Position numbers and translations under genes: made by a program. Below are positions 47,867-51,923 of a DNA stretch of 64,000 bases, one piece after another. This DNA is from Kaistella soli (GTDB taxonomy: Bacteria > Bacteroidota > Bacteroidia > Flavobacteriales > Weeksellaceae): contig NZ_JAHOPF010000005.1 of the NCBI RefSeq assembly GCF_019038595.1, positions 124,001-188,000 of the forward strand, given 5' to 3'. Every line of letters begins with the position of its first letter. The first letter of the stretch is position 1. The notes under the pieces are model-generated. The model searched no databases, was not told the DNA's origin, and saw only the letters and a list, made by a program, of their open reading frames with translations.

Positions 47867-49243
47867 ATGAAATTACCTTACGCAGAACCTTACAGAATTA
47901 AAATGGTCGAAGAAATTCGCCAGTCTACCAGAGCAGAAAGAGAGCTCTGGCTGAAAAAAGCCGATTATAATTTATTCAACCTGAAATCGTCGCAGGTTTT
48001 TATCGATCTGTTGACCGATTCCGGAACCGGGGCGATGAGCGACCGTCAGTGGGGCGCACTGATGACCGGAGACGAAAGTTATGCCGGCTCCAGAAGTTTC
48101 GAAGAACTGCATCAAACCGTGCAGAATCTTACCGGATACAAATATTTATTGCCAACCCACCAGGGACGCGCCGCGGAGAATGTGCTGTTTTCCGTTTTGG
48201 TGAAAGAAGGCGATGTGGTTCCCGGTAACTCTCACTTCGATACCACCAAAGGACATATCGAAATCAGGAAAGCCCATGCCATCGACTGTACCGTGGATGA
48301 AGCATTCGACATTGAAAACCTCCACCCTTTCAAAGGAAATATCGACCTCGTAAAACTCGAGGAAGTTTATAAAAGCTATCCGAAAGAAAAAATTCCGTTC
48401 TGCATGATTACCATTACCTGTAACTCTTCCGGCGGACAGCCCGTTTCCCTGGAAAACATGAAAGCGGTAAAAGCACTTTCAGACCGTTACGGAATCCCCA
48501 TTTATTTCGATTCCGCGAGGTTTGCGGAGAACGCTTACTTCATCAAGAAAAGAGAAGCCGGACAGGAAAACCGCAGCATCAAAGACATTGCGAAAGAAGT
48601 ATTCTCTTACGGTGTTGGGATGACGATGAGTTCCAAGAAAGACGGCCTTGTCAACATCGGCGGGTTTATCGCTTTGAATGACGAAAACATTTTCAGAGCC
48701 GCTTCCAACATTACCATTATTTACGAAGGTTTCATCACCTACGGCGGAATGGCGGGCCGCGACATGGCTGCGCTGGCTGTTGGTTTGAATGAAGCTACAG
48801 AATTCGAATACCTCGAAAGCCGTATTTCCCAGGTGGAATATCTTGGGAACAGACTGATTGAGTTCGGAATCCCCGTGCAGAAGCCGATTGGCGGACATGC
48901 CGTGTTCGTAGATTCCCTGAAATTTTTGCCGAATATCCCAAGAGAAGAATATCCTGCACAGACTTTGGCAAACGAAATTTATAAGGAAGCCGGCATCCGC
49001 ACCGTAGAGATCGGGACGCTTTTGGCAGACCGTGATCCGCAGACAAGGGAAAACCGCTACCCGAAACTCGAACTCGTGAGGCTCGCCATCCCGAGAAGAA
49101 CCTACACGAACAATCACATGGATTATATCGCTGCCGCCATTAAAAACGTTTACGACAGACGCGACGAAATAGAGAAAGGCTACCATATCACCTGGGAATC
49201 CGAAATCCTGCGCCACTTCACGGTGAAACTGGAAGAAGCTTAA
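47867..49243 (+). CDS. tnaA: Tryptophanase
   Basis: 458 residues, PLP enzyme splitting L-tryptophan into indole, pyruvate and ammonia. Motifs: IDLLTDSGTGAMSD, THQGRAAEN, FDTTKGHIEI, DSARFAENAYF, and MSSKKDGLVNIGG with the PLP lysine. It is tryptophanase rather than tyrosine phenol-lyase: Asp in FDTTKGH (Thr in TPL) and Ile in TVEIGTLL where TPL has its phenol-binding Arg. The gene stands alone: no tnaC-like leader peptide is seen in the 25 bp after the upstream terminator and no tryptophan permease follows. Coding GC looks somewhat higher than in neighbours. Confidence 0.95.
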   Translation: MKLPYAEPYRIKMVEEIRQSTRAERELWLKKADYNLFNLKSSQVFIDLLTDSGTGAMSDRQWGALMTGDESYAGSRSFEELHQTVQNLTGYKYLLPTHQGRAAENVLFSVLVKEGDVVPGNSHFDTTKGHIEIRKAHAIDCTVDEAFDIENLHPFKGNIDLVKLEEVYKSYPKEKIPFCMITITCNSSGGQPVSLENMKAVKALSDRYGIPIYFDSARFAENAYFIKKREAGQENRSIKDIAKEVFSYGVGMTMSSKKDGLVNIGGFIALNDENIFRAASNITIIYEGFITYGGMAGRDMAALAVGLNEATEFEYLESRISQVEYLGNRLIEFGIPVQKPIGGHAVFVDSLKFLPNIPREEYPAQTLANEIYKEAGIRTVEIGTLLADRDPQTRENRYPKLELVRLAIPRRTYTNNHMDYIAAAIKNVYDRRDEIEKGYHITWESEILRHFTVKLEEA

Positions 49244-49250
49244 AACAACA

Positions 49251-49282
49251 AAATCCGTTCGGCATTGCCGGGCGGATTTTTT
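49251..49282 (+). terminator. Intrinsic terminator after tnaA
   Basis: AAATCCG / CGGATTT outer stem with an inner CGGC/GCCG, then a T-run. Confidence 0.75.
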
Positions 49283-49381
49283 GTGCTAATTCGCTAGTTT
49301 GTAAACAATTATTGTTTGGTGAATTGAGTTAATAGTTGGATATTTGAGATAACCTAAAGACAATTCATAAAATATTCATCA

Positions 49382-49531
49382 TTGGAAGCAATTATAAATT
49401 TTGTTTTGAGTTTTTTTAAAAGAAAGGATGGAAAAAACAGCTATTGGGGCTTAATATTTATTGTTGCAACATTACTATTTGTGAATTATCTATTTAGCTT
49501 TAGTGATCAATATAAATTTGAAAAAAAATAG
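49382..49531 (+). pseudogene. 5' fragment of a frame-broken membrane protein gene
   Basis: A frame opening at TTG 49382 or TTG 49406 encodes SFFKRKDGKNSYWGLIF and a membrane span (about YWGLIFIVATLLFVNYLF) and then stops at TAG 49529-49531, immediately after eight consecutive A (49521-49528). Stepping back one base at the A run opens the frame that continues without a stop to 50253. The fragment is therefore taken as the N-terminus of the same gene. Causes to separate: a real deletion, a homopolymer sequencing error, or slippage on A AAA AAA. Confidence 0.6.
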
Positions 49532-49707
49532 ATAACTTAAAAAGTATTGAATCTCTGCTAAAGGATAAAACCTTAGATAAAAATGTTGCAAATTATCTTA
49601 TAAAGAAAAAAGAAGATATAATTTCGGAGATTAAATTTGATCCCAATCATATATATAAAATTCCTCAAAAAGAAGTAACTAACTTTTTAGACTTCAGAAA
49701 ATTCCCA

Positions 49708-50253
49708 GTGATTCACTACATATCATCATCGTGGCTATTTATTTTTCTAACTATTTTGCTTCCTATCCGATTATTTGACAGAAGTAGTATTGTACGTGGA
49801 ACGTTATTTACAACGCGGCTCCTTATAATAATTGTTATGACTTTCACGGTATATTGTGCTTCAATTATTTATTCAAGTCTTCTTGAAAATATACCCATCA
49901 TATCTTACAAACACTTATGGATAAACTATTTACTTAATTTTTTTTCAATTTTCTTCACGATACTATTTTTTTACTTTCTTTATTCGCTTTTTAATGTGCA
50001 TAAAAATTATTCACAATTCATGACTGAAAACGACATGCCATATGATCCGAATGACTTCTCGCCACTAGCAGAGAAAATCGGAGAAGATAATCCCTTACTT
50101 TGGGCTCATGAAATTATTAAATATAATTACTCAAATAATGATAAAAGAACCACAATTATATTTACAATTTTAACAATTACCTTATTTTTCTTTGCATTTG
50201 GAAGTATTATTTACACGTTATATTCAATCGTAAGATATTTTATAGAGATTTAA
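49708..50253 (+). CDS. Hypothetical multi-span membrane protein, C-terminal part of a split gene
   Basis: The longest start-to-stop frame begins at GTG 49708 and gives 181 residues, but the same frame is open for 60 codons before it, back to the A8 run, with no usable ATG, GTG or TTG. The reconstructed protein would have about 282 residues and five spans; in this part: SSSWLFIFLTILLPIRLF, TRLLIIIVMTFTVYCASIIY, NYLLNFFSIFFTILFFYFLY and TTIIFTILTITLFFFAFG. A hydrophilic loop (FMTENDMPYDPNDFSPLAEK) lies before the last span. No family is recognised. Base composition is more AT-rich than tnaA. Confidence 0.6.
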   Translation: MIHYISSSWLFIFLTILLPIRLFDRSSIVRGTLFTTRLLIIIVMTFTVYCASIIYSSLLENIPIISYKHLWINYLLNFFSIFFTILFFYFLYSLFNVHKNYSQFMTENDMPYDPNDFSPLAEKIGEDNPLLWAHEIIKYNYSNNDKRTTIIFTILTITLFFFAFGSIIYTLYSIVRYFIEI

Positions 50254-50295
50254 CCGTAATCTATATTAAAATATTATGGTCCAATACGCCCCGCT

Positions 50296-50319
50296 GCGCG
50301 AAGTCTCCTGACTTCGTGC
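50296..50319 (+). repeat. Palindromic (REP-like) hairpin element
   Basis: GCGCGAAGTC (50296-50305), TCCT loop, GACTTCGTGC (50310-50319): ten paired bases including one G-T. No T-run follows, so it is not a standard terminator. Only one copy was noticed in this window. Confidence 0.6.
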
Positions 50320-50360
50320 CTCTATAATCCAAACGTTACATCATCCATTACCTCATTTTA

Positions 50361-50520
50361 CCAAATCTTTAGGTCATTTACCCAAACCATTAGCTCCCGA
50401 AGCCAAATGTTTAGCTCAGCAACGCAAAACTTTAGGTCCGGAACCTAATCGTTTAGCCTTGGAACCTAAAATTTTAGCCTTTTGACCTAAACGGTTCTCA
50501 AAACAACCTAAACACTGCCG
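50361..50520 (+). repeat. Degenerate tandem array, period exactly 21 bp, palindromic core CTAAAnnTTTAG
   Basis: Seven units (starts 50361, 50382, 50403, 50424, 50445, 50466, 50487) plus a partial eighth at 50508. Each has a core related to CTAAAnnTTTAG followed by about nine variable bases ending in AAC, often GGAAC. The core of unit six, CTAAAATTTTAG, is a perfect palindrome; others differ by one to four bases. A weaker unit may precede at 50340. The constant 21-bp step equals two helical turns. Confidence 0.8.
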
Positions 50521-50535
50521 TAAAATAAAAGAAAA

Positions 50536-50560
50536 ACAGCCCACGGAAACCGCGGGCTGT
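50536..50560 (-). terminator. Intrinsic terminator of the 161-residue protein gene
   Basis: ACAGCCC(A)CGG / CCG(C)GGGCTGT stem, 3-nt loop; the minus-strand tail is T-rich. Confidence 0.78.
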
Positions 50561-50581
50561 CTTTGATGAAGTATATCATTG

Positions 50582-51067
50582 CTATTCCCCTTCAACAGGA
50601 GGACCTGAGCGTTTGCTGCTGCGCGGAAAAAACTGCTTCAGCTCGTTTTTCTTGGTTTCGTAACCTGCGGCATTGGAGCCTGCCTTGTAATTGGTGTAGG
50701 CATAATCATCAAGGGCCGCCTGGTAGTTATCGTAATCGTGCAGAATCTTCGAGTTTTTCAGCCTTTCGTCCATGGCCTTTACGCGGTGGGCAATGTTTTC
50801 GATAAACTGACGGCTTTTCAGGTCGTTCTCGAATTCATTCCAGTCGAGGTCAGGCTGCGAAAGGTGGGCGCTGTTCTGGCGGTAATCCCACACTTTGTTG
50901 ATGAGGAGCTTATTCTGCTCGTTCACACTGCCATAGTTTTTGCGCTCGTCGGGGGTAAGGGTTACGGTAAGCACGGCCAGTGCGTCTTCCAGCGCGGCAA
51001 CGGCAGTTTGGATGTTGTTCATCTGCGCTTCTGTAAGGTGCGCATTGTTGAGATTTGGTAAAGGCAT
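50582..51067 (-). CDS. Conserved hypothetical protein, 161 residues
   Basis: Soluble, helical, no signal peptide or span. Starts PLPNLNNAHLTEAQMNNIQTA; then VTLTPDERKNYGSVNEQNKLLINKVWDY (in part) and PDLDWNEFENDLKSRQFIEN. C-terminal part is basic (KKNELKQFFPRSSKRSG). I have a vague memory of similar 150-170-residue hypothetical proteins in diverse bacteria but cannot name a family. Its coding sequence is visibly richer in G/C than the genes around it, which may mean recent acquisition. Single gene with a terminator. Confidence 0.7.
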   Translation of the reverse strand: MPLPNLNNAHLTEAQMNNIQTAVAALEDALAVLTVTLTPDERKNYGSVNEQNKLLINKVWDYRQNSAHLSQPDLDWNEFENDLKSRQFIENIAHRVKAMDERLKNSKILHDYDNYQAALDDYAYTNYKAGSNAAGYETKKNELKQFFPRSSKRSGPPVEGE

Positions 51068-51152: not shown

Positions 51153-51923
51153 TTACCTGTGATGTCTTTTGAAAAACGCCACCATTTCGGGGATGGATTC
51201 ATGTGGGAATTCGTGGCCGGCACTGCGCTCTTCCACGACAAGTTCTGTATGATCAGTGCCGGTATAAAAAGTTTTGTCGCCTTTTACCACTGCGGTCTTA
51301 GGATCTGCTTTCAGATTATCTTCCACCATCGCAACCGACTGTTTCTGCATCCCGTACGGAACCAGAGGATCATTTTTTCCCATGCTCATCCACACCGAAA
51401 GCGGTTTCGCACCTTTGATCATCCTGCCGCCCTGCGCCGCGACCGAACAGATGGCCGCAATTTTATCCGCTCTCTCTACCCACAGCACATTCACGAATCT
51501 TGCACCGTTGGAATGTCCTACGGCATAAATCCTTGAAGCATCAACGTTATAATTTTTAGTCAGATCTTTTAAAACCTCATCGAAGAACAGCACATCGCGG
51601 TTGCCGTGATCGTTGGGAAACATTTGCCAGCCGTTCAGCAGGCCTTTTTTATCCACCACGTAGCCGGAGGTTCCTGGGATGCCTTCCATGAAAACCACCA
51701 GTGTTTCCTTATCGTAATTCTGGAAATCGATTTTCTTTGAAGCAAACTGCGCATTGCCGCCATGTCCGTGAAAAACAAAGATCACCGGTGTTTTTTCAGA
51801 TTTCAGCTGAGGTTGGAAGACCAGTGCTTTCCTTGCGGTACCGTTGATATCAAATGTCTTGGTAATCTGGGAAAAGAAAAAGCTGAATGCAAAAACAGAC
51901 AGCAGCAAAAGGATTTTTTTCAT
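51153..51923 (-). CDS. Secreted alpha/beta hydrolase (PHB depolymerase/feruloyl esterase-like, LpqC family)
   Basis: 256 residues with signal peptide (about 1-19, ends FFFSQ). Oxyanion region VIFVFHGHGGNAQF, nucleophile Ser in AVGHSNGARFV, Asp in SMGKNDPLVPY, and catalytic His in RSAGHEFPHES. The fold resembles CE1/LpqC-type polyhydroxybutyrate depolymerase and feruloyl esterase families; the actual ester substrate is unknown. Exported to the periplasm or beyond; no T9SS C-terminal domain. It has 85 bp on the upstream side of the 161-residue gene start and no partner genes. Confidence 0.85.
   Translation of the reverse strand: MKKILLLLSVFAFSFFFSQITKTFDINGTARKALVFQPQLKSEKTPVIFVFHGHGGNAQFASKKIDFQNYDKETLVVFMEGIPGTSGYVVDKKGLLNGWQMFPNDHGNRDVLFFDEVLKDLTKNYNVDASRIYAVGHSNGARFVNVLWVERADKIAAICSVAAQGGRMIKGAKPLSVWMSMGKNDPLVPYGMQKQSVAMVEDNLKADPKTAVVKGDKTFYTGTDHTELVVEERSAGHEFPHESIPEMVAFFKRHHR

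Follow-up and report, generated by a model that had tools for sequence, protein, structure and literature searches.

A phased 21-bp repeat array beside the gene of an undescribed helical protein family in Bacteroidota

Described repeat systems and their relation to the locus

Plasmid iterons and partition-site arrays are helically spaced direct repeats, near 21–22 bp in period, that are bound by the protein of an adjacent gene and occur on replicons whose Rep or Par proteins have known folds. Their geometry is like that of an array found in a 64,000-nt stretch of Kaistella soli (GCF_019038595.1, NZ_JAHOPF010000005.1, 124,001-188,000 of the forward strand; hereafter "the window", meaning this whole stretch), beside a gene for a protein of 161 aa (Table 1). 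The present array, however, is chromosomal, has not been found on plasmids, is accompanied by a protein without a fold match and has a unit sequence that varies between homologues. An iteron origin or partition site was not supported as its identity, since homologues of the protein were absent from plasmid, phage and viral collections and no Rep or Par match was obtained in Pfam, NCBIfam or PHROGs; a viral or plasmid origin was rejected on the same absence of relatives.

RAYTs are HUH/Y1 transposases with a pair of inverted REPs around the gene, and a genome often contains more than 100 REPs (PMC2817692). In common with REP/BIME-RAYT systems, the locus has extragenic palindromic repeats beside a dedicated gene, gene-free repeats elsewhere and sequences that differ between species (PMC2817692). 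Here, in contrast, the array is one-sided (usually 3′), stands behind a terminator, has a fixed helical spacing and occurs in low copy number. This candidate was rejected because searches of Pfam, NCBIfam and PHROGs returned no HUH/Y1 (IS200/IS605-like) transposase or other mobility family above cut-off, no inverted pair flanks the gene, and the 5′ flanks lack the repeat.

In TIGR arrays, each unit specifies a guide of 36 nt with 9-nt spacers, and a Nop-domain protein accompanies the array (PMC12045711). TIGR-Tas loci also combine a tandem, dyad-like dual-repeat array with a small gene, and their repeats are alike within a locus and distinct between loci (PMC12045711), but the units described here are 21 bp, have no spacers and follow a period tied to the DNA helix. 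TIGR-Tas was rejected on the lack of a Nop-domain match (Pfam to E 5, PDB fold) and on 21-bp units whose words recur rather than being unique. Lastly, the E. coli gyrase motif consists of a wave of GC content around a single cleavage site, and its flanks show a GC change with a period of 10.75 bp (PMC6379681). Strong gyrase sites and BIME-2 elements resemble the array in their extended, near-helically periodic pattern and intergenic position (PMC6379681); however, the E. coli motif has no linked small gene, whereas the present arrays have explicit dyads and a fixed GT..AC core.

No description of such arrays or of the protein family was found in the literature covered, which consisted mainly of open-access journal papers. 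Given that neither the known systems nor this literature provided a match, we take the array-gene system to be categorically new, although literature beyond that scope may hold it.

The array, its neighbourhood and the adjacent protein

The array stood out clearly from the rest of the window. The sum of scores for the CTAAAnnTTTAG core over seven units reached 60/70 at 50361 with a period of 21, compared with 40 for the runner-up in the window at any period between 12 and 40, and 44 for the top sum in 200 Markov-matched 64-kb controls. A separate scan identified 21 bp at 50345 as the sole strong short period of the window (0.635), with other periods from 15 to 29 reaching at most 0.433. These scores bear out the observation of an earlier, sequence-only reading that units begin every 21 bp without a slip; its array also stands, but its count of seven does not, as nine units are recognizable, and the seventh of its proposed cores (50487, CTAAACGGTTCT) is weak. 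Two dyads, CCTAAAnnTTTAGG and GGTTCnGAACC, alternate in each unit, their centres separated by about 10.5 bp. An Rfam search of the window gave no match to a curated RNA family.

Table 1. Coordinates of the array and of neighbouring features in the window.
Feature	Position	Strand	Remark or basis
Helically phased array, nine 21-bp units	50329..50517	-	Per-unit gene-strand sequence like TAAAnnTTTGGGTTCnGGACC
161-aa all-helical protein gene, candidate array partner	50582..51067	-	Undescribed Bacteroidota family
Intrinsic-terminator-like hairpin, ACAGCCCGCGG...CCGTGGGCTGT then T run, between gene and array	50533..50562	-	Sequence
Hydrolase	51153-51923	-	
181-aa ORF beyond the array	49708-50253	+	
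Beta-eliminating lyase, tryptophanase-like, beyond the array	47867-49243		

On the minus strand the hydrolase comes first, followed by the 161-aa gene, its terminator and then the array, which lies just beyond the terminator. Terminator-like structures were likewise detected within 130 nt past the stop codon in 57 of 80 homologous loci, as compared with 7 of 79 control stretches, and, apart from the array, no conserved neighbour was found around the family gene. The array had been placed in an accessory-looking gap between two unrecognized genes; this description was not supported as stated, because throughout the phylum homologues of the 161-aa gene are followed by arrays, and the array therefore goes with one of the two.

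The 181-aa ORF looks like the 3′ portion of a longer gene for a membrane protein (49404-50253, plus strand): a frame from about 49404 meets a stop immediately past eight consecutive A residues, and the reading resumes in a different frame that leads into the ORF. The break (49521-49528) may be a phase-variable tract, a pseudogene or a sequencing error. Accessory genes in the lyase-to-array stretch (49250-50320) vary among related species, with a toxin-antitoxin-like pair in K. haifensis and other ORFs at loci L031 and L026, so that the borders of arrays may be hot spots for insertion.

Modelling of the 161-aa protein with AlphaFold2 (66 homologues) resulted in a confident all-helical prediction (pLDDT 89, pTM 0.69) that includes a 55-residue helix. 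The protein had no Pfam match even at E 5, and none with family-wide support; no NCBIfam or PHROGs family scored above cut-off, a sequence search of the PDB and fold searches of the PDB and BFVD returned nothing significant, and the PADLOC search for defence genes gave marginal matches only. The family is acidic (median pI 5.5), and no recognizable DNA-binding domain was found in it by the Pfam and PDB searches. Homologues were present in Kaistella, Chryseobacterium, Flavobacterium, Riemerella, Capnocytophaga, Pedobacter, Niabella, Marinifilum, Labilibaculum and Tannerella. The distribution was patchy, with the family in 21 of 297 genomes drawn over Bacteroidota and up to six copies per genome, including three genes in the window's own genome. 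In one case (L158/L177, G183:C45) two gene copies lie in tandem, with a 42-bp double-unit array behind the second and none between them.

Linkage, spacing and conservation across Bacteroidota

Arrays were surveyed on one contig, at the loci around homologues and through pattern searches. For 80 homologues from named Bacteroidota genomes, the 3′ and 5′ flanks were scored for the best-repeating period between 12 and 60 bp. The best 3′ period was 21 bp at 56 loci, 42 bp at 14 and 43 bp at 10, with no other period among the 80, and the signal was near noise at two (L080 and L131); the 5′ flanks had no period preference. Strong 21-bp scoring windows were located within 600 bp 3′ of the gene at 54 loci and in each of the other position classes at one or two, while neighbouring periods (e.g. 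20, 22, 24 and 30 bp) produced almost none in the same position test. A clear array lies 5′ of the gene in Tannerella (L131), and the distant homologues L159 and L160 also have theirs on that side.

The linkage extended to divergent members of the family, being kept in 11 of 12 representatives below 60% identity. Most homologues at ∼20–50% identity have an array of unrelated sequence with a period of 21, 42, 43 or 44 bp (unit examples are GGTACCCGGGTAGGTTCGGAA at L169 and AACCAGTTTATGTTTTACTTG at L165; units are 43 bp at L172, L187 and L212, and 44 bp at L183 and L188), and a minority, e.g. L161, L162, L163 and L191, have none. The 43-bp units are 100% identical in L187 (G036) and 93% identical in L212, a homogeneity that suggests recent homogenization of a double unit of 21 + 22 bp. 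Within the 368-kb contig that contains the window, arrays were detected solely beside its two family genes.

Arrays of the same type were also found at sites that lack a family gene and have ordinary genes on both sides (L240-L253), together with further stand-alone 21-bp arrays (L010, L020, L024 and L026-L029), often at gene 3′ ends or between convergent genes, e.g. pyk/groEL. Some of these belong to genomes in which no family gene was detected (G022, G027 and G032). The family gene is thus nearly always accompanied by an array, but an array does not imply the gene. As arrays exist without it, the 161-aa protein may not be the reader of the array; the reader may be a host factor, or the stand-alone arrays may be relics or may be served in trans.

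Autocorrelation of the flanks of the 80 loci showed peaks at multiples of 21, up to 147/148 at the seventh. Segmentation yielded 625 steps of 21 bp, 102 of 22 bp and 12 of 20 bp, for a mean spacing of 21.1 bp or 10.56 bp per turn, in agreement with the proposal that the period fits the helical repeat, and dyad centres over the related loci recurred every 10.5 bp. The expectation that spacing is kept while bases vary likewise held in related loci, on a far larger scale than in the window. The most constant part over the 80 loci was GT(T)nnn(A)AC, which occurs a single time in each unit, and it is this second dyad, rather than the AT-rich core emphasized previously, that is invariant. No covariation was observed between the halves of a unit beyond the consensus, so the palindrome noted in the window belongs to the shared consensus and is not maintained unit by unit; tight dimer sites would be expected to give a stronger signal. 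The same result led to the rejection of local hairpins, in RNA or as cruciforms, that are maintained by compensatory changes. In a wedge model, predicted bending at 10.5 bp was 1.24 for the arrays and 0.89 for dinucleotide-shuffled units, with other harmonics rising too; A-tract curvature alone was rejected as an explanation because this excess is modest and shared by other harmonics. A 7-bp purine/pyrimidine sub-period was weak.

Conservation was assessed at the tryptophanase locus, where the arrays of seven species aligned within 198 gap-free columns at 80% identity, compared with 48% beyond. Across the array, pairs of gene-bearing species were 79–89% identical; at third codon positions of the neighbouring gene, most pairs reached only 46–66%. 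No family gene was detected in G032, where the array at this locus was 69–73% identical to the others, with normal coding divergence. Relative-rate tests assigned 25–32 array changes to the G032 lineage versus 9–13 (p 0.006–0.047, for one lineage and with tests that are not independent), i.e. the array there evolves two to three times faster. This single lineage suggests that constraint on the array relaxes where the family gene is absent. Fifteen relatives had neither the family gene nor an array at the tryptophanase site.

A proposed phased DNA platform and competing explanations

The fixed phase, the largely free bases, the alternating half-sites and the maintenance of both length and sequence make a phased DNA platform the simplest reading of these data. 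The array would be a non-coding element with a half-site at every helical turn and the orientation alternating from site to site, which would place all sites on the same side of B-DNA, and cooperative binding or wrapping would extend over some 200 bp of this platform. The adjacent 161-aa protein is likely the natural candidate partner; encoded just upstream, it would probably assemble on the array or on a host protein held there, and being acidic and without a known DNA-binding domain it could work via assembly or through another protein. Gene, terminator and array would then form a two-part chromosomal module of Bacteroidota. We give this platform, with the 161-aa protein as its functional partner, about an even chance of being correct. 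That the 161-aa protein physically contacts the array, that a dimeric protein binds there and that the chromosome is affected in any way are inferences only. A more specific version, in which small helical proteins, each with its own phased array of individual sequence, assemble at gene 3′ ends into an ordered filament or a wrapped complex, the stand-alone arrays being served in trans, is tentative and in our judgement somewhat less probable than even. The tie between a phylum-wide gene family and an element with largely free letters and a fixed helical phase is a rare case in which selection on the three-dimensional register of DNA can be tested directly. Both an anonymous protein family and a class of intergenic repeats gain context from it, and many natural variants are at hand for the study of phased nucleoprotein assembly. 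If true, the more specific version would represent a simple bacterial counterpart of sequence-encoded chromatin and an unrecognized nucleoprotein system in Bacteroidota.

The main rival of the platform is a gyrase or nucleoid-protein reading, according to which the arrays are general host-factor sites (DNA gyrase wrapping, HU/IHF-like) for supercoil management at gene 3′ ends, in the manner of BIME-2, with the 161-aa gene as a modulator or passenger. Arrays that stand alone between ordinary genes, some of them where the genome has no detected family gene, argue for such a factor, as do the bending predicted at 10.5 bp and, in E. coli, the 10.75-bp GC periodicity in the flanks of the gyrase motif and the role of BIME-2 as a gyrase target (PMC6379681). 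Yet the presence of an array beside nearly every family gene and the faster change of the G032 array would be left unexplained, GC periodicity at 10–11 bp is weak next to that at 21 bp, and the fixed GT..AC core is unlike a loose GC wave; we consider this reading unlikely. Selfish or neutral tandem repeats, prone to slippage or recombination, perhaps amplified by the protein as in REP/RAYT and with a period set by the copying mechanism, would account for the fresh homogenization (identical 43-bp units in L187, 42-bp units at 96% in L242), for two pyk-linked arrays (G027 versus G035) that differ by exactly 63 bp or three units, and for the patchy, multi-copy distribution. However, the tryptophanase array has kept its length in seven species with conservation above that of third codon positions, independent arrays are all near-helical whereas slippage could lead to any period, and a mobility family was not among the matches of the protein, so that this origin appears decidedly improbable.

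Slightly less credible still is an array whose transcript is processed into small guide or decoy RNAs bound by the protein, similar to TIGR or CRISPR systems. Its position directly beside the gene of a small helical protein, the dual-repeat look of the 42-bp arrays and the palindromes of stem-loop TIGR arrays (PMC12045711) are consistent with such RNAs; on the other hand, in most loci the gene is set apart from the array by a terminator, the same unit words return within as well as between arrays with no spacer-like unique segments, the within-unit covariation expected of RNA stems is missing, the Nop domain was matched neither in Pfam nor by fold, and a period close to the B-DNA helix would have no reason in RNA. 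The last alternative, a decayed coding repeat of heptapeptides (LGSKAKx), had been raised by the sequence-only reading. In its favour, 21 is divisible by 3, and a minus-strand frame with few stops can be read as heptapeptides. Against it, none of the six frames of the window array is free of stops, single-bp steps of 20 or 22 bp occur in 53 of the 80 arrays, open frames numbered 23 versus 23.3 expected from column-permuted arrays, and an intact heptapeptide gene was not found at orthologous sites. The slips together with the lack of an open-frame excess rule out a coding repeat, to which we attach next to no credence.

At four loci (L038, L042, L044 and L049) the end of the array is directly followed by a promoter-like TAnnTTTG motif and by the beginning of another gene, and at two of these (L042 and L044) the gene after the array starts with a similar MAKSLN... 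sequence.
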